Source: Planctomycetia bacterium
GTDB lineage: Bacteria > Planctomycetota > Phycisphaerae > Phycisphaerales > SM1A02
Assembly (NCBI GenBank): GCA_005790605.1
Contig: SXUI01000070.1
Span: forward strand, 1 to 64,000
Direction of reading: 5' to 3'
DNA: 64,000 nucleotides
Under the pieces are notes generated by a model. That model did not search any database. It was not told the origin of the DNA and was given only the letters and a program-made list of their open reading frames with translations. Shown piece after piece: positions 22,657-31,880 of this stretch. A program made the translations under genes and the position numbers. Positions within the stretch are counted from its first letter, which is position 1; the number at the start of each line of letters is the position of its first letter.

Positions 22657-23607
22657 ATGTCGACGCCTTCATCGCAGCGCATTTCCTTCGTCAAGATGCA
22701 CGGCATCGGGAATGACTATGTGTATGTGAACGCCTTCGTGCACGCGATCGACGATCCTGCGTCCGTTGCGCGCCTTGTCGCTGATCGACAGTTCGGAATC
22801 GGCGGCGATGGGTTGATTCTCGTCGCGCCTCCAACGGTCGAGGCACGGGCAAAGGGTGCTTCCGTCCGCATGCGCATGTTCAACGCCGATGGAAGTGAAG
22901 GCGGCATGTGCGGCAATGGCATCCGATGTGTGGCGAAGTTCGCGATTGATCGAGGGCTCGCGTCGACGAATCCTCTTCTCGTGGAAACCAAGCGCGGCGT
23001 CCTCTCGATTGTGTGGAAGCGGGGCGGCGATGACCGTGTGGCGGAAGCGACGGTTGATATGGGCGCGCCGATGCTCGAGTGCTCGGACATTCCTGCGTCG
23101 ATCGACGGACTTACGCTCTCGGCGCGGTGCATCGCGCATCCAATCGATCTTGATCGATTTGGCGCGGAGGGTTGGGCTCTAGACGCGGGCGTGGAGTCGC
23201 GAATGACGCTTGTTTCTATGGGAAATCCGCACGCTATCTTTGACTGCGCGGATCCTTGGAAGATCGACCTTGACTCGGTTGGCCCCGCAATCGAGCGATG
23301 TGCGTGGTTTCCGGATCGCATGAATGTGCACTTCGTGGCATGGCGATCATCCGCAGAGTGCGTCATGCGAACTTGGGAGCGCGGAAGTGGCATCACGCTT
23401 GCCTGCGGAACCGGAGCGAGTGCGGTGTGCGTTGCAGGCGTGTTGACCGGGCGTGCGAACGACATCACTGCGCACTTGCCCGGGGGGTCGTTGGCGTTGT
23501 CGTGGAAGGGTGAAGGCGCATCCGTCTTTATGACTGGCGGCGCGACCGAAGTTTTTTCGGGCGAGTTCGATCTTGCCGCTCTCGAACGGAGTTGCCGTGG
23601 GAAGTGA
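22657..23607 (+). CDS. dapF: diaminopimelate epimerase
   Basis: A 316-residue DapF, converting LL- to meso-diaminopimelate for lysine and peptidoglycan. Two catalytic cysteines are present, in GGMCGNGIRC (near 85) and ITLACGTGAS (near 249), together with KMHGIGNDY at the N-terminus and MGNPHAIF. The gene starts 9 bases after the M48 gene and its end overlaps the start of the M20 hydrolase gene, so it sits in a run of plus-strand genes. Confidence 0.94.
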   Translation: MSTPSSQRISFVKMHGIGNDYVYVNAFVHAIDDPASVARLVADRQFGIGGDGLILVAPPTVEARAKGASVRMRMFNADGSEGGMCGNGIRCVAKFAIDRGLASTNPLLVETKRGVLSIVWKRGGDDRVAEATVDMGAPMLECSDIPASIDGLTLSARCIAHPIDLDRFGAEGWALDAGVESRMTLVSMGNPHAIFDCADPWKIDLDSVGPAIERCAWFPDRMNVHFVAWRSSAECVMRTWERGSGITLACGTGASAVCVAGVLTGRANDITAHLPGGSLALSWKGEGASVFMTGGATEVFSGEFDLAALERSCRGK

Positions 23608-24838
23608 TGCACTCAACGCACTTGAAAAGAACATCGTGGCGCAGCTTCATGCGCGGCAGTCTGCGATGGAGTCAGACCTCGATGCGTATGTCGCGATTCC
23701 GACTGGAACTGGCTACGAGGTCGGTCTCGCGAAGTTTCGGGTACTCCTACGCGATCGATTCAAGCGACTTGGCGCGAGCGTGAAGGAGATTCCTGGAGAT
23801 CCCAAACCAGCGTGGATCACGATGCCCGGTCAATCTGCCGATGCGGCACCGCCGCCTTGTTTACAAGCGGTTTCTGCAAGTTCGAGTGGACCTCGGCACC
23901 TGTTGACGGGTCATCTCGACACCGTGCATGATCCGTTTGGCGCGTTCCAATCGTTACGAAGAGTCTCGCTCACGCGGGCAGAGGGGCCGGGCGCGATCGA
24001 CATGAAGGGCGGACTCGTGACGATGCTTCATGCGCTCGAAGTGCTCCATGAGTGCGACGCGCAAGTCGGTTGGACGGTCCTACTCAACAGTGACGAGGAG
24101 GCGGGAAGTCTCCATAGCGGCCGCGTTGTGCGCGCAATCAGTCGCGAGCACGCCCAGTCGGGCGGACTGGGATTCGCGATGGAGCCAGCGCTCACGGACG
24201 GATCGATCGTGATTGAACGACTTGGCAGCGCGACATTCAGGCTCGAGTGCTGTGGACGCGCGGCGCACGCGGGTCGAGATTTCGCGCAAGGCATCAGCGC
24301 CGTCAACGCGCTGGCGGGTCGCATACTTCAAGCAGCAGCGCTGGTCGATCTCCCGCGCGGGACGGTTGTGAACATTGGCCCACTCGAAGGTGCCGCGGCG
24401 ACGAACATTGTTGCTGACCGCGCTCGCGCTTGGGGGAACGCGAGATTCCGTGATGCATCGGGGGAAGCGAAACTTCTCCAAGGTTTGCGCGCGCTTGAGA
24501 CCGAGAGTGGCGCGCCGCTTCCCCATACTCAACTGCAGTATGAATCGAACCGACCGGCGAAGCCTGCTTCAGCGAGCGTGCAGTTGCTCGCGAAGAGAAT
24601 TCAATCGATTGGGGCGTTAGTGGGTGAGACGATCGGATTTGGGAAATCAGGTGGCGTGAGTGATGGCAATCTCATGCAAGCCGAGGGACTCACGACGATC
24701 GATACGCTTGGCCCGCGGGGTGGAAATCTGCATCGCACGGATGAGTTCATCGAACTTGATTCGATGGCGCCACGTGCGGCAATGCTTGCGCTCACGCTGT
24801 TGCGGAGCCAGAACGGCATCGCCGGGCTTGACCGATAA
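23597..24838 (+). CDS. M20-family metallohydrolase, carboxypeptidase G2/ArgE-like
   Basis: About 413 residues from the GTG at 23597 (GGAG six bases before; a TTG at 23573 is also open). All zinc ligands of the M20 fold are visible: GHLDTVHDP, GAIDMKGG, the EE pair in NSDEEAGS, AMEPAL, and a C-terminal histidine in GGNLHRTDE. The spacing is like carboxypeptidase G2/ArgE, which remove N-acyl groups or release glutamate. It ends 104 bases before the aminotransferase-astA-astD block, so an N-succinylglutamate desuccinylase role is an attractive inference. The substrate is not shown by sequence alone. Confidence 0.8.
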   Translation: MGSDALNALEKNIVAQLHARQSAMESDLDAYVAIPTGTGYEVGLAKFRVLLRDRFKRLGASVKEIPGDPKPAWITMPGQSADAAPPPCLQAVSASSSGPRHLLTGHLDTVHDPFGAFQSLRRVSLTRAEGPGAIDMKGGLVTMLHALEVLHECDAQVGWTVLLNSDEEAGSLHSGRVVRAISREHAQSGGLGFAMEPALTDGSIVIERLGSATFRLECCGRAAHAGRDFAQGISAVNALAGRILQAAALVDLPRGTVVNIGPLEGAAATNIVADRARAWGNARFRDASGEAKLLQGLRALETESGAPLPHTQLQYESNRPAKPASASVQLLAKRIQSIGALVGETIGFGKSGGVSDGNLMQAEGLTTIDTLGPRGGNLHRTDEFIELDSMAPRAAMLALTLLRSQNGIAGLDR

Positions 24839-24942: not shown

Positions 24943-26379
24943 ATGCCCACCATGCTCAACGCCAATCAGACACTCGGCGCCGCGTTTCGCGCCAGTCCCG
25001 CCGTCGAAGCGGCGATTCATTCCATCCTCGCGGAGCTTCAGGTTCGGCAGTCGAAACTCACGGCTGTGCGAAGCGCGTCCGGCGACTTGCGGGAGACGCT
25101 GCAATCGTGGCTTGCACGCGCGGCAGATGTGCGCGGTCGCGGCGGCTTGTATCCCTACGTGGGATCTGGCTTCGGCAATGGCGCACTCGTCGAGCTTGCG
25201 GACGGCAGCGTGAAGTGGGATCTCATCAATGGCATTGGTGTGCACATGTTTGGGCACTCCGACCCCATGCTGGTGGAGACCATGCTTCGTGCGTCGCTCA
25301 CGGACCTCGTGATGCAAGGCAACCTGCAATACAACGAGGAGTCGATTGAGTTTGCGGAGTTCTTGCGCGATGAGGCGGCGGCGCACTCTCGACTCGCACA
25401 CTGCTTCGTGACGAACTCCGGCTGCATGGCGAATGAAGCAGCGCTCAAGGTCTGTCAGCAAAAAACTTCGGGTGCGCCGCGCATCATCGCGTTCGCTGAT
25501 TGCTTCATGGGTCGATCGACCACCATGTCGCAGATTGGCGACACCGCAGCGTATCGACAGGGCGTCGCACTGAATGTGCAAGTCGACTACCTCCCGTTCT
25601 ATGACGAGGACCTCGGTGAGCGATCTATTGATCGCGCCGTCTGGCAACTCGAACAGTACATCCATCGCTATCCCTCGCAGCACTGCGCACTCGTCGCTGA
25701 GTTGATTCAAGGTGAAGGCGGCTTCAATACCGCGCCACGCGAGTTCTTCGTCGCGCTCTTCGAACGGGCCAAAGCAGCGGGAATTCCTATCTGGGACGAT
25801 GAAATCCAAACGTTTGGTCGCACGCAAAGCATGTTCTGCTTCGAACAGCTCGATCTTGGCTCGTACATCGATGTCGTGACGGTCGGCAAGATCACGCAAG
25901 CGTGCGCCTGTCTCTACACCGCAGAGTTCAATCCGAAAGCCGGACTTCTCTCGGGCACATTCAGTGCATCGTCGAGCGCGTTCGCGACTGGTCTTGCGAT
26001 TCTCAGAAGGCTCAAGAGCGGCGGCTTCTACGGAGCGACGGGCTTGAATGCGCAGCTCTTCGAGGCATTCCGGCAACACGCGGACTCGTTCGTGAAGTCA
26101 CATCCGCAGTGGTTTCCGGCGCTCCCGACTGCGATGGGTGGCGAGAGCAGACGATTCGTTGCTGGCACGGGCGGCATGATGCGCCTCTCGCCCTTCGGAG
26201 GAAGCAAAGAGAAGATCGGCCGACTCCTCAATCATCTTTTCGAGGACGGAGTGATCGCGTTCAGCTGCGGTCATGGTCCCTACCACCTTCGTTTCCTTCC
26301 ACCCATCGGTGTGATGCAGCCCGCGCAATTCAAGAGTGTCTTTGAAATCATGGAGCGCTCATTCGCGCGCACCGTCTGA
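24943..26379 (+). CDS. class III aminotransferase, probable succinylornithine/acetylornithine type
   Basis: A 478-residue PLP enzyme with a GGAG site eight bases before its ATG. It has the fold-type I class III signature: the DDEIQTFGRT acidic motif, and the PLP lysine in TVGKITQA near residue 315. AstC transaminates succinylornithine in the arginine succinyltransferase pathway. The position immediately before astA and astD supports that role. The region around the active site also resembles lysine 6-aminotransferases, so substrate choice is inferred from neighbours. Confidence 0.75.
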   Translation: MPTMLNANQTLGAAFRASPAVEAAIHSILAELQVRQSKLTAVRSASGDLRETLQSWLARAADVRGRGGLYPYVGSGFGNGALVELADGSVKWDLINGIGVHMFGHSDPMLVETMLRASLTDLVMQGNLQYNEESIEFAEFLRDEAAAHSRLAHCFVTNSGCMANEAALKVCQQKTSGAPRIIAFADCFMGRSTTMSQIGDTAAYRQGVALNVQVDYLPFYDEDLGERSIDRAVWQLEQYIHRYPSQHCALVAELIQGEGGFNTAPREFFVALFERAKAAGIPIWDDEIQTFGRTQSMFCFEQLDLGSYIDVVTVGKITQACACLYTAEFNPKAGLLSGTFSASSSAFATGLAILRRLKSGGFYGATGLNAQLFEAFRQHADSFVKSHPQWFPALPTAMGGESRRFVAGTGGMMRLSPFGGSKEKIGRLLNHLFEDGVIAFSCGHGPYHLRFLPPIGVMQPAQFKSVFEIMERSFARTV

Positions 26380-26398
26380 CGGTCTTTCGAGATTGAGC

Positions 26399-27463
26399 AT
26401 GTTTGTCATTCGCCCCGCCATTCAAGACGATCTCGCGACGCTGATGAAGTTCGCGAAGATGGTGCATTTCATCAACCTGCCAGCGGATCGAGACTTGCTT
26501 TCGGCCAAGGTCGCGCGGAGTCGTCGCAGCTTCATGCTGCAAGCGGATGACCCTCGCGAACGCGAGTTCATGTTCGTGCTTGAAGATCAGGAGACCAATG
26601 AAGTCATCGGAACTTGCGGTGTGCTTTCAAGCGTCTCATGGCCAGGACATCCGCAGATCACGCTGAAGGTGCGCCGTCGCGAGCATTACAGCGACGATCT
26701 TCGAGGCGGTCAGGTGCACACGACGGTTGAAATGTGCACGGATGAAACTGGCCCGAGCGAAGTGGGTGGCCTGATTCTCGCGCCAGGCTTTCGAGGCCGC
26801 GCGGATCATTTGGGCGCACTGCTCTCACTCGTGCGATTTCATTTCATTGGTTTGCATCGCGAGCTCTTCGCGCCTCGGATCCTTGCCGAGATGATGGGTC
26901 CTCTCACGCCCGATTCACACACGCCGCTTTGGGAGTACTTCGGTCGCCGTTTCATCAACCTGAGTTACCGAGAAGCGGATCTCTTCAGTTCGCGCTCAAA
27001 AGAATTCATGCTTTCACTCTTCCCGAAGGGGGAGATTTATGTTTCGATGCTTCCGCCTGAGGCGCGCGCGCTCATCGGTCGCGTCGGCGAGGAAACGGAG
27101 CCTGCTCGAAGATTGCTCGAAAAGCAGGGATTTCGCTTCGATAACCAAGTCGATCCGTTTGACGGTGGTCCGTGCCTTGAAGCCGAACGCGATGTGATTC
27201 CTCTCGTCAAGGCAACCGAGCGCAAGCCATTCCTCGGCACCAAAGTCATCGCAGCGGGAAGCCTCGAGGCGTTCGTTTCGAATCCGGGCCCGGCCGGATT
27301 TCGAGCCACTCGCAGCGCGTTTGAGGAAACGGCGGATGGCGTGTGGCTCCCCGAAGCGATCGCCGCAGCGCTGCACCTCAAGCAAGGCGCGTTTGTTGGA
27401 TGCACGCCTCTTCCGCCAGCGCGCGAGTCATCGCGAAGAAAACCGCGGAAGGGAACTTCGTGA
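26399..27463 (+). CDS. astA: arginine/ornithine N-succinyltransferase
   Basis: From the ATG at 26399 it is 354 residues starting MFVIRPAIQDDL, a GNAT-like AstA. Family segments are clear: EVGGLILAPGFRGR, LVRFHFIGLHRELFA, LAEMMGPL, TPLWEYFGRRF, a PPEARALIG segment and LEKQGFRFDNQVDPFDGGP. AstA adds succinyl from succinyl-CoA to arginine; the AruF/AruG enzymes of pseudomonads also act on ornithine. There is a single subunit here. It is 19 bases after the aminotransferase and overlaps astD by 4 bases. Confidence 0.9.
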   Translation: MFVIRPAIQDDLATLMKFAKMVHFINLPADRDLLSAKVARSRRSFMLQADDPREREFMFVLEDQETNEVIGTCGVLSSVSWPGHPQITLKVRRREHYSDDLRGGQVHTTVEMCTDETGPSEVGGLILAPGFRGRADHLGALLSLVRFHFIGLHRELFAPRILAEMMGPLTPDSHTPLWEYFGRRFINLSYREADLFSSRSKEFMLSLFPKGEIYVSMLPPEARALIGRVGEETEPARRLLEKQGFRFDNQVDPFDGGPCLEAERDVIPLVKATERKPFLGTKVIAAGSLEAFVSNPGPAGFRATRSAFEETADGVWLPEAIAAALHLKQGAFVGCTPLPPARESSRRKPRKGTS

Positions 27464-28953
27464 GCTGCGCTCGCGTCGGAAGAGACTTCATTGCAGGCGG
27501 GTTTCGCGATCTCCCTGGCAATGCGATCGTCGTGCGTGACCCATCCGATGGATCCACAGTGGTGTGGCAGGCGACGCCGATCGTCTCGCATGTTGGCGCG
27601 GCGATTGAAGCGGCTCGTCAAGCGCAAGCCGCTTGGGCGCGATTGAGGTTTGAAGATCGCGCGGCGATTTTGCGCCGCTACGCCGAAGCCACCACATCGC
27701 GTGCGGACGAGATTGCAGAGCGCATCGCTCGCGAGATGGGAAAGCTCAAGAGTGAGGCAGTGCTCGAAGCGAAGTTACTCGCGGAGAAGGTTGCGATCAC
27801 GCTCGAGGAGCATTCGTCCGCGCGAATCCGTGGTTACGAAGTTGCGATCAACCAAAGTCGAACGGGTCTCTGCTCGTTTCGCGCACATGGCGTGATGGCT
27901 GTGCTCGGCCCGTTCAATTTTCCAGCGCACCTGCCCAATGGTCAGCTCGTGCCCGCGCTGCTTGCGGGCAACACGGTGGTTTTCAAGCCGAGTGAGAAAG
28001 CGCCGGGTGCCGCAGAAATTCTCGCAGAGTGCTTTGTCCACGCAGGCTTGCCGCGCGGCGTTTTCAATGTTGTGCAGGGCGGAGCTGAAACTGCGCGGTC
28101 GTTGACGGCGCACCGAGACATTGACGGCATTCTCTTCACGGGATCGTTCCAAGTCGGTCGTGCGATTCTTGAGTCGAATCTCGATCGACCTGGGCGCATC
28201 GTCGCGCTCGAAATGGGTGGGTCGAACGCGAGCATCGTCTGGGGCGACTGTGATCTGCGTCAGGCGGTGATTGAGTGCGCACGCGCGGCCTTCGCGACGA
28301 CCGGCCAGCGATGCACTTGCACGCGGCGCATGCTTGTGGACGCGCGAATCGCTCCGCGGTTTATCAAAGCCTTCTGCGAGGTCGCGTCAAATCTTTCGGT
28401 TGGTGAGGCGCTCTCGCAAGAGCCGGTGTTCATGGGACCACTCGTGTCGAGCGACGCTGCAGACGCGTTTCTGCGCGAGCAAGCTCGGCTCGTCGAGCAT
28501 GGCGCGAAATTGCTTGTCGTGGGCTCGCGGCTTCCACGGCCCGGCTACTTCGTGTCACCGAGCGTTTGCCAAGTGGAGCGCTTTACGATTGAGGATGATC
28601 GTGAGACATTCGCGCCATTGGTGCGCATTGCCACGGTGCACTCGCTTGACGATGCAATCGCGCAAGCTAATGCGAGTGAGTACGGACTCGCTGCAAGCGT
28701 GTTCACACGAGATGACGCCGTGTGGGACGAATGCGTGGCTCAACTCAAGTCGGGATGCATCAATCGCAATACGGGCACGGCAGGGGCATCAAGCCGCTTG
28801 CCCTTCGGCGGGCTCGGTCGCAGCGGCAACCATCGCCCAGCTGCCGCGTTTGCGCTTGATTTCTGCGCATATCCGGTCAGCAGCCTCATCGAACGATCAG
28901 ACACTGCACCTGTGCCAGTTGGCATGTGTGCGGAGGAAAGTTGGTTTCAATGA
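27460..28953 (+). CDS. astD: succinylglutamate semialdehyde dehydrogenase
   Basis: The GTG at 27460 overlaps the astA stop (GTGA) and follows GGAAGGGA; the product is 497 residues. It is an ALDH-fold enzyme with PFNFPAHLPNG, the general-base Glu in LEMGGSN (near 250), the catalytic Cys in TGQRCTC (near 285) and the AstD-type end LDFCAYPVSSL. It oxidises N-succinylglutamate semialdehyde with NAD. Its stop overlaps the start of the ureohydrolase gene by 4 bases, so the three genes are translationally coupled. Confidence 0.92.
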   Translation: MSCARVGRDFIAGGFRDLPGNAIVVRDPSDGSTVVWQATPIVSHVGAAIEAARQAQAAWARLRFEDRAAILRRYAEATTSRADEIAERIAREMGKLKSEAVLEAKLLAEKVAITLEEHSSARIRGYEVAINQSRTGLCSFRAHGVMAVLGPFNFPAHLPNGQLVPALLAGNTVVFKPSEKAPGAAEILAECFVHAGLPRGVFNVVQGGAETARSLTAHRDIDGILFTGSFQVGRAILESNLDRPGRIVALEMGGSNASIVWGDCDLRQAVIECARAAFATTGQRCTCTRRMLVDARIAPRFIKAFCEVASNLSVGEALSQEPVFMGPLVSSDAADAFLREQARLVEHGAKLLVVGSRLPRPGYFVSPSVCQVERFTIEDDRETFAPLVRIATVHSLDDAIAQANASEYGLAASVFTRDDAVWDECVAQLKSGCINRNTGTAGASSRLPFGGLGRSGNHRPAAAFALDFCAYPVSSLIERSDTAPVPVGMCAEESWFQ

Positions 28954-29927
28954 AGAGATCGAAGTCAACGCTCTTACCCAACGGTCGAGTCCACCCGCGC
29001 TTCGCAGGTCTACTGACATTCCTTCGCGTCCCTCGTCTGGAAGATCTTTCCGCAGAGCATGCTCCGGCGGACTGGGCAATCTACGGAGCACCCTTTGACG
29101 GCGGCACGACCTTTCGTCCGGGCGCGCGCTTCGGTCCGCGCGCGGTCCGCGATGCGAGTCAGTATGTGAAGGCGTTTCATCTTGAATTGCAGGTGGATTG
29201 GGCTGCCGCACTGAGCGTGGTTGATGCAGGGGACGCGCCCACTGCGCCGTTTTCGTGCGAGGCGAATGCGCAAATGATGACCGCGCATGCGCGCACGATT
29301 GGCGCTCCGAGCACAAAGCTCCTCGCGGTCGGCGGAGACCATTCCATTGCCCTCGCGAACATGCGCGTTGCGTTTGAGCGCGCGGGTCGACCTGAAGGTG
29401 GACTCGCGGTGTTGCACTTCGATGCGCACCTTGACACGGTCGATCGTGTGTGGGGCGAAGCCTATAGCCACGCGTCACCGTTCCGCCGCGCCATAGAAGA
29501 GGGGATCATCGCGCCTACGAAAATGCTCTCGATCGGAACCCGTGGTCCAATCACGATGGAAGCCGATCTTGAGTGGTGTAAGGCACAGGGCATCGAGATT
29601 GTCTCGTCGCAAGCTGCGATCAACTCCAACGCGGGTCTTCAAGCGGTCGAGCGATGCGTCGCGAAGGCGGGCGGACAGCCGATGTACCTCTCCATCGACA
29701 TCGATGTGCTTGATCCGGCGTTCGCGCCAGGAACCGGAACGCCGGTCGCAGGTGGTCTCTCGTCAGCGCGTCTCTTTGAGCACCTTCGCGCCGCGAAAGG
29801 GATACAACTTGCTGGCGCTGATGTGGTGGAGGTCCTTCCCGATCGAGACACGAGCGGCATCACGGCCCTCGCTGCAGCGCACTGCCTCGCCGAGATTTTG
29901 GCGATTGATGCGAGTTCGCGCGCGTAG
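28950..29927 (+). CDS. agmatinase-family ureohydrolase
   Basis: A 325-residue manganese ureohydrolase starting at the ATG that overlaps the astD stop. All metal-site motifs are present: GGDHSI (near 128), FDAHLDT (near 157) and SIDIDVLDP (near 248), followed by the agmatinase-type APGTGTPVAGG. It also has GAPFDGGTTFRPGARFGP. Relatives hydrolyse agmatine, guanidinobutyrate or arginine to an amine and urea. There is no arginine decarboxylase nearby, and the coupling to astD suggests that the substrate is arginine or N-succinylarginine. That is inference. Confidence 0.85.
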   Translation: MKRSKSTLLPNGRVHPRFAGLLTFLRVPRLEDLSAEHAPADWAIYGAPFDGGTTFRPGARFGPRAVRDASQYVKAFHLELQVDWAAALSVVDAGDAPTAPFSCEANAQMMTAHARTIGAPSTKLLAVGGDHSIALANMRVAFERAGRPEGGLAVLHFDAHLDTVDRVWGEAYSHASPFRRAIEEGIIAPTKMLSIGTRGPITMEADLEWCKAQGIEIVSSQAAINSNAGLQAVERCVAKAGGQPMYLSIDIDVLDPAFAPGTGTPVAGGLSSARLFEHLRAAKGIQLAGADVVEVLPDRDTSGITALAAAHCLAEILAIDASSRA

Positions 29928-29931
29928 AAGC

Positions 29932-29966
29932 AAAAAAACCACCGGCGGTCTCGCGACCGCCGGTGG
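29932..29966 (-). terminator. rho-independent terminator, minus strand
   Basis: A 12-bp GC-rich stem (29939-29950 with 29955-29966, loop TCGC). On the plus strand it is preceded by seven A residues, so on the minus strand it is followed by a T-run and can end the folE transcript, about 250 bases after that gene. Read on the plus strand it may also slow exit from the ureohydrolase gene. Confidence 0.65.
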
Positions 29967-30212
29967 CTCGTCCCTAGACCGGACCCATTTGTTGGACACA
30001 ATGTGAGGAGTCACTGTGTCCTGGACCCAAGTCGAAAGTCGTCTCCTGCAGAGGAATCCCGGAATGGTTCCTCGCGGCGGCTGACTTCCTCACGCGGTTG
30101 CGTGACGAAGAGATAATCGGTCTGAAGTTCGGCGCGCGCCATACGGCGGATTCCCCACTTCTCAGCCGCACGCGTTCTGCAATCGTTGCAGGCTGCGAAG
30201 GCGCTGTTTTGC

Positions 30213-30881: not shown

Positions 30882-31880
30882 ATGGAATGCACATCGAGCA
30901 ATCCGCCAGAGAGTTATCACCGCGCGAATGCGAGTCATCGCGCGTGGTGGGTTGGAAGAGATGACGGCGCCGAATCAACCGCAGCTCGTTGGCACCAGCG
31001 TGTTGCCTTTCATGATCTCGCGCAGGCGCTTCCGCCTTGCATTCAACGAACCGCATGCTTCATCGGATACGCGAGTGATCTCGGCGTGCGCATGAATCAA
31101 GGGCGTGAAGGCGCGGCCCTCGGTCCCGGTGCGCTGCGCGAGCGAATGGCGAACTTCCCCGCGATCGGCGGATTGCAGTTGGTGGATTGCGGTGACATTG
31201 TGGCTGCGGACTCCGTCCTTGCGACGCAAGAGGCGCTCGCCTGGGCGGTTGAGCGGATCGTCCGAGCGGGCGCGATTCCCGTCATTCTTGGTGGCGGACA
31301 CGATCAAGCATTCGGGCACTTCTTAGGGCTCGCTCGCGCGCTCGGTCGTGCGCCCGCGTGCTTGAACTTTGATGCGCATGCTGACCTGCGGCCGATCCCC
31401 GCGAGTGGTCCCAATTCTGGCACGCCGTTTACGCAAGCGGCGGACTGGTGTGCGTCGCACAACGAAAAGTTTCGATACACCATCGTTGGTTGGCAATCAT
31501 GCGCGAACACGCAATTGCTCGCAGATCGCGCAAGAGATCGGGGTGTGTCGATCATCGACGCGCTGAGCGTGCAAGCAGCATCGGTGGCGAACGCGTGCGG
31601 GGGGTTTGCGGGAGCGCCGATCGCGCTCTCCATCGACCTCGATGTCTTTTCCGCGGCGCACGCGCCTGGTGTCAGCGCACCAAGCGCGCTCGGTTTGATC
31701 CCCGATGCTGCGTTCACGCGCCTGCTTCAAGGGTTGTTTTCCTCACACACAGCCATTCGCGGTATCGAGATTGCGGAGCTGAATCCCTCGCTCGATGTCG
31801 ATGCACATACGGCGCGACTCGGCGCAGCACTGATCTACGCGATGCTTTCGGCATACGCGCAATTGAGGTCGCCCGCGTGA
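30882..31880 (+). CDS. hutG: formimidoylglutamase-like ureohydrolase
   Basis: A 332-residue arginase-fold protein of the HutG type, which converts N-formimidoyl-L-glutamate to glutamate and formamide in histidine breakdown. Evidence: GYASDLGVRMNQGREGAALGP, GGGHDQAFGH, NFDAHADLRP and SIDLDVFSAAHAPG, which holds the second metal-ligand pair. The first 55 residues are poorly conserved and the true start may be later. No other hut gene is in the window. Its stop overlaps the ROK kinase start (GTGA). Confidence 0.8.
   Translation: MECTSSNPPESYHRANASHRAWWVGRDDGAESTAARWHQRVAFHDLAQALPPCIQRTACFIGYASDLGVRMNQGREGAALGPGALRERMANFPAIGGLQLVDCGDIVAADSVLATQEALAWAVERIVRAGAIPVILGGGHDQAFGHFLGLARALGRAPACLNFDAHADLRPIPASGPNSGTPFTQAADWCASHNEKFRYTIVGWQSCANTQLLADRARDRGVSIIDALSVQAASVANACGGFAGAPIALSIDLDVFSAAHAPGVSAPSALGLIPDAAFTRLLQGLFSSHTAIRGIEIAELNPSLDVDAHTARLGAALIYAMLSAYAQLRSPA

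Follow-up and report, generated by a model that had tools for sequence, protein, structure and literature searches.

In the classical arginine succinyltransferase (AST) pathway, encoded in Escherichia coli by the astCADBE cluster, the guanidino step is carried out by AstB, which yields N2-succinylornithine, two molecules of ammonia and CO2. Here we analyse a 64,000-nucleotide stretch of planctomycete DNA (the window; contig SXUI01000070.1 of assembly GCA_005790605.1), in which a gene of the arginase superfamily, hereafter UH1, takes the place of astB in a cluster of otherwise familiar outline. The likeness to astCADBE lies in the orthologous families of AstA and AstD, in a class-III aminotransferase and in the order aminotransferase – AstA – AstD – guanidino step. 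The differences are that AstB (PF04996) is absent and a di-metal ureohydrolase stands in its place, that an M20-family deacylase is present whereas no gene of the AstE family was found, and that the aminotransferase is far from AstC. We assign a probability of about 0.7 to the reading that AstB has been displaced by the non-orthologous UH1, most likely a di-manganese N2-succinylarginine ureohydrolase, a substrate and a metal that we infer from the evidence given below.

Several described ureohydrolases bear comparison with UH1. Proclavaminate amidinohydrolase (PAH; 1gq6) belongs to the same subfamily (36% identity, Z 41.4), and its substrate, like the one proposed for UH1, is derived from arginine and acylated at the alpha-nitrogen; in this compound, guanidinoproclavaminic acid, the acylation is part of a beta-lactam. 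PAH differs in acting in antibiotic biosynthesis and in having His and Tyr at the positions of Lys74 and Arg299 of UH1. It takes off the guanidino group of its substrate (PMC6097109). GpuA (3nip) and GbuA (3nio) from Pseudomonas aeruginosa, which are among the top sequence and fold matches and share guanidino-acid chemistry (GbuA also having a basic residue, Arg72, at the head-group position held by Lys74 in UH1), form a separate clade, carry Tyr or Phe at the Arg299 position and HGT where UH1 has HAS, and are unlinked to AstA here. OspR and other peptide arginases, likened to UH1 by description, are members of the superfamily whose target is arginine modified at both its amino and its carboxyl group (PMC10028609), but their substrates are peptides, their role is in natural-product maturation and they show little similarity to conventional arginases.

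Mutually exclusive occurrence of UH1 and AstB

A profile search of the source genome (80 contigs, 3.03 Mb, 99% complete) found no AstB, while the controls gave a match; the astB gene elsewhere in the genome that had been named as a case against the original prediction was therefore not found. The genome has one AstA only and two PF00491 genes only: UH1 and another gene of the window that resembles formimidoylglutamase.

The search was extended to 201 genomes of the window's order, among which AstA was found in 144, AstB in 72 and UH1 orthologues in 71. The orthologues are 50–59% identical to the window copy and score at least 338 bits; the next match is a UH1 fragment at a contig end (144 bits, genome G546), which was counted as UH1, and the remainder score at most 141 bits. 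All 71 genomes with UH1 have AstA and lack AstB, while UH1 occurs in none of the 68 genomes with both AstA and AstB and in none of the 57 without AstA (Fisher p = 1e-35, a value that ignores relatedness). The placing of a ureohydrolase in the AstB slot, originally proposed from the window, is thus upheld by mutual exclusion over 139 genomes. In three genomes that had appeared to combine AstB with a strong ureohydrolase (G416, G356 and G466), the latter proved to be another paralogue (25–30% identity) rather than UH1.

Relatedness was handled with an AstA tree of 98 rows, on which AstB and UH1 must have changed places at least 13 times. Among nine independent pairs on well-supported branches of this tree, about eight were opposite in direction and none went in the same direction (sign test p ~0.008); for the aminotransferase, AstD, dapF and the M20 protein, trees with fewer rows require five to eight changes. 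Switches are seen even inside genera (g1, g268 and g11): in the window's own genus, g1, G000 carries UH1 and G502 carries AstB. Across three close switch pairs AstA is 82–86% identical, and no AstA column was found that consistently tracks the partner. Mutual exclusion, together with the repeated switching on the AstA tree, makes it very probable that UH1 functionally replaces AstB.

Gene order and cluster partners

The AstA loci that were read in the phylum repeatedly show the order aminotransferase – AstA – AstD, often with the M20 gene and dapF. AstD is followed by AstB in families at the edge of the order, in a sister lineage within the class and elsewhere in the phylum, which is the same order as in E. 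coli; in many members of families f1 (the window's own), f2 and f5 it is followed by UH1. A comparison with related planctomycetes had been proposed at the outset, and the recurrence that it revealed argues that the arrangement is not due to chance. In 34 genomes UH1 is a same-strand neighbour of AstA (at most 6 kb away), and its position there is that of AstB in the clusters of family f4, of the class, of the phylum and of E. coli. In the best 80 loci of the genome scan, relatives of UH1 from outside the planctomycetes (40–47% identity) had no AstA nearby.

Within the order AstB is often beside AstA in families f3 and f4 and never in f1 and f2, whose AstB proteins fall into several clades, none of them beside AstA. 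As the backbone of this tree is weak, multiple re-acquisition of AstB in f1 and f2 is only suggested. A plausible history, the direction of which is our reconstruction, would start from an ancestral cluster with AstB, continue with the entry of UH1 into the slot and lead to a repeated return of AstB elsewhere, accompanied by the loss of UH1.

In the window the open reading frames of the aminotransferase, astA, astD and the ureohydrolase proved real and lie in one plus-strand run, as first described: 19 bases separate the aminotransferase from AstA, and the last three genes are joined by 4-base overlaps (GTGA for AstA/AstD, ATGA for AstD/UH1). Profile scores likewise bear out the family assignments of AstA (PF04958, 314 bits; Pfam cut-off 29) and AstD (NF006992, 478 bits; TIGR03240, 455 bits), the latter being an aldehyde dehydrogenase for which succinylglutamate-semialdehyde dehydrogenase is the best family by ~180 bits. 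The aminotransferase belongs to Aminotran_3 and falls far under the AstC and ArgD cut-offs in the family profile search.

The run probably extends upstream to include an M20 deacylase that the original prediction had overlooked. This protein matches Peptidase_M20 and M20_dimer, its closest NCBIfam model being PRK07338 hydrolase (314 bits, under the cut-off of 357), and its gene is syntenic across the order and present in most relatives, including those with AstB-bearing clusters. No AstE (PF04952) match was obtained in the source genome, while the E. coli control gave one. Since the M20 gene and the same aminotransferase orthologue also stand in AstB-bearing clusters (the latter across the phylum), both are older than the exchange of AstB and UH1; and with no AstE in the source genome, AstE also appears to have been displaced, earlier than AstB.

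The UH1 protein and its predicted substrate

UH1 has the fold and the motifs (GGDH, DAHxD and DxD) of the ureohydrolase superfamily and scores 249 bits with PF00491 (Arginase; cut-off 22). The manganese motifs were rightly called intact: all six metal ligands (H131, D158, H160, D162, D250 and D252), as well as the catalytic His and Glu (H174 and E294), occur unchanged in 38 orthologues (alignment A1). An AlphaFold2 model (pLDDT 91.5, pTM 0.92; fold matches with Z up to 41.9) finds its nearest solved folds in guanidinopropionase and PAH, followed by agmatinases, while in the phylogeny UH1 forms a fully supported monophyletic clade of its own, distinct from SpeB, GbuA/GpuA, PAH and the actinobacterial relatives. 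Residues specific to this clade include Tyr72 (72/72 sequences), Lys74 (71/72), HAS instead of HGT at positions 174–176, Asn202 and Arg299 (69/72; mostly Tyr elsewhere, and Tyr or Phe in the aligned characterised relatives).

Two of these residues bear on the substrate. Lys74 aligns with Arg72 of GbuA, which caps the active site of the adjacent subunit and may touch the carboxylate of the substrate (PMC9772407). An agmatinase is expected to have an aromatic or acidic residue for the substrate amine in the alpha2-eta2 loop; in the E. coli enzyme Trp68 is the proposed holder of this amine (PMC8125230), and at the adjoining aligned position 71 of the 72 UH1 sequences have Lys. By this comparison UH1 looks like a guanidino-acid hydrolase, and Arg299 may serve a second carboxylate. 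Succinylarginine is favoured because a basic residue occupies the carboxylate-capping position, because Arg299 adds a further clade-specific base and because PAH acts on an N2-acylated arginine derivative. The distribution is also the one predicted for a succinylarginine enzyme, UH1 always being accompanied by AstA and never by AstB.

In the route that we propose, AstA would succinylate arginine, UH1 would hydrolyse the guanidino group of N2-succinylarginine to give N2-succinylornithine and urea, the aminotransferase of the cluster would form N-succinylglutamate semialdehyde, AstD would oxidise the latter to N-succinylglutamate and the M20 enzyme would probably free succinate and glutamate. 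AstA should still make N-succinylarginine in the genomes with UH1, since AstB needs this compound and AstA is unchanged across the switches. The proposal that urea is released instead of two ammonia by a ureohydrolase replacing AstB gains support from the absence of AstB and from the mutual exclusion.

The same replacement could be achieved in another order, with UH1 acting before AstA as an arginase (arginine to ornithine and urea) and AstA then succinylating ornithine. Either order ends at N-succinylornithine, and the distribution data fit both equally well. The arginase scheme is chemically simple, and enzymes of the AstA/AOST family are able to act on ornithine in Pseudomonas. We nevertheless hold it to be unlikely: UH1 is far from satisfying the arginase model TIGR01229 (62 against 228 bits) and groups with guanidino-acid hydrolases and agmatinases, while the scheme requires AstA to have moved from arginine to ornithine, yet AstA shows no residue change linked to its partner. 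Moreover, UH1 never occurs without AstA, though an arginase would be useful alone, which fits a succinylarginine enzyme rather than a free arginase.

Automatic annotation takes UH1 for an agmatinase (the best NCBIfam name for its members), as is explained by its passing the cut-off of the agmatinase equivalog model TIGR01230 (203 against 174 bits); this model may be a loose one, and the stricter agmatinase model NF002564 is missed (252 against 302 bits). Taken literally, the name would make UH1 an ordinary SpeB serving putrescine synthesis, with its place beside AstA and AstD incidental. The source genome does have the arginine decarboxylase SpeA, and the original prediction had listed an activity on agmatine only, paired with such a decarboxylase, among the outcomes that would count against it. 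In fact, SpeA occurs in most genomes irrespective of UH1 and was not matched in four genomes with UH1 (G436, G478, G552 and G278); the agmatine deiminase AguA is present both in the source genome and in its AstB-bearing congener G502; a different PF00491 gene stands directly beside SpeA in seven UH1 genomes (G303, G368, G372, G393, G396, G398 and G414); and a separate SpeB-like gene at locus L122 is only 29% identical to UH1. With Lys rather than Trp at the head-group position, and with the exclusion of AstB left without explanation, we regard a dedicated agmatinase as very improbable and have set it aside. Hydrolysis of some other guanidino acid (4-guanidinobutyrate or 3-guanidinopropionate, for example), with UH1 and AstB marking two alternative arginine routes, is more improbable still, as the nearest solved relatives by sequence do include guanidinopropionase and guanidinobutyrase but the UH1 clade is separate from GbuA/GpuA and absent from all genomes without AstA, and AstA and AstD are kept in UH1 genomes where nothing else is known to process N-succinylarginine.

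A number of points weigh against an N2-succinylarginine ureohydrolase, including the TIGR01230 match. AstA might take ornithine as well, and the arginase-first order would then be feasible. The window copy of UH1 forms a long branch within its clade and has Thr202 where 71 of 72 sequences have Asn; UH1 does not lie within 6 kb of AstA in about half of the genomes; and five genomes with AstA (G342, G422, G472, G522 and G535) have neither AstB nor UH1. Finally, the urease alpha subunit was not found in 15 genomes, including the source genome, so that the urea nitrogen looks wasted; the urea is probably exported or used by another route.

With these points taken into account, we still consider it probable that N2-succinylarginine ureohydrolase is a new activity, defining a urea-releasing AST variant in planctomycetes that has been repeatedly exchanged with the AstB form. 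The new elements would be the displacement of one step of the AST pathway and a further subfamily of ureohydrolases; a search of mostly open-access literature found no paper on a ureohydrolase acting on N-succinylarginine, or on an AST pathway that lacks AstB. If the reading is correct, the nitrogen yield of arginine breakdown is altered (urea replacing two ammonia), a textbook pathway gains an activity that current models call "agmatinase", a family of misannotations is corrected, and one step served by two unrelated, interchangeable enzymes becomes a clean case of repeated non-orthologous displacement.

Feature coordinates and further observations

Table 1. Features of the AST-type cluster and its surroundings, in window coordinates.
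Feature	Positions	Strand	Remarks
dapF	22657-23607	+	first gene of the plus-strand run
M20-family deacylase/hydrolase	23573-24838	+	start codon uncertain; putative substitute for AstE (succinylglutamate desuccinylase)
Class-III aminotransferase, divergent	24943-26379	+	478 aa; proposed AstC role (N-succinylornithine transaminase)
AstA, arginine/ornithine N-succinyltransferase family	26399-27463	+	354 aa
AstD, N-succinylglutamate-semialdehyde dehydrogenase	27460-28953	+	GTG start, 497 aa
UH1, arginase-superfamily ureohydrolase	28950-29927	+	ATG start, 325 aa; proposed N2-succinylarginine ureohydrolase
UH1 codons Y72-V73-K74	29163-29171	+	in the clade-specific SQYxK motif
UH1 metal-ligand codons H131, D158, H160, D162	29340-29435	+	invariant in alignment A1
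UH1 metal-ligand codons D250, D252	29697-29705	+	invariant in alignment A1
UH1 codon R299	29844-29846	+	clade-specific Arg
Stem-loop 3' of UH1	29936-29969		15-pair stem; T-run on the minus strand

The stem-loop that follows UH1 is the strongest terminator-like match of the region and marks the boundary to the folE region, folE being convergent to UH1. The second PF00491 gene of the window (30882-31880) is closest to the formimidoylglutamase HutG, under the cut-off (213 against 229 bits). Many f1 relatives, those with AstB as well as those with UH1, keep this gene close to the AST cluster in conserved synteny, accompanied by folE and frequently by a D-amino-acid-dehydrogenase-like gene.

Three further loci merit mention. 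The genome G547 has two UH1-type genes (C125:5138-6094 and C103:3259-4227; 57% and 56% identical to that of the window). G242 carries a second, divergent M20 – aminotransferase – AstA – AstD cluster without adjoining AstB (L053, G242:C38:224500-240000), with another AstA ~130 kb away on the same contig. G342 and G422, which belong to one genus and are both nearly complete, carry AstA and neither AstB nor UH1, and at the G342 locus (L062, G342:C14:333000-349000) the M20 gene, the aminotransferase and AstD are present with AstA; this genus may have a third solution for the guanidino step.

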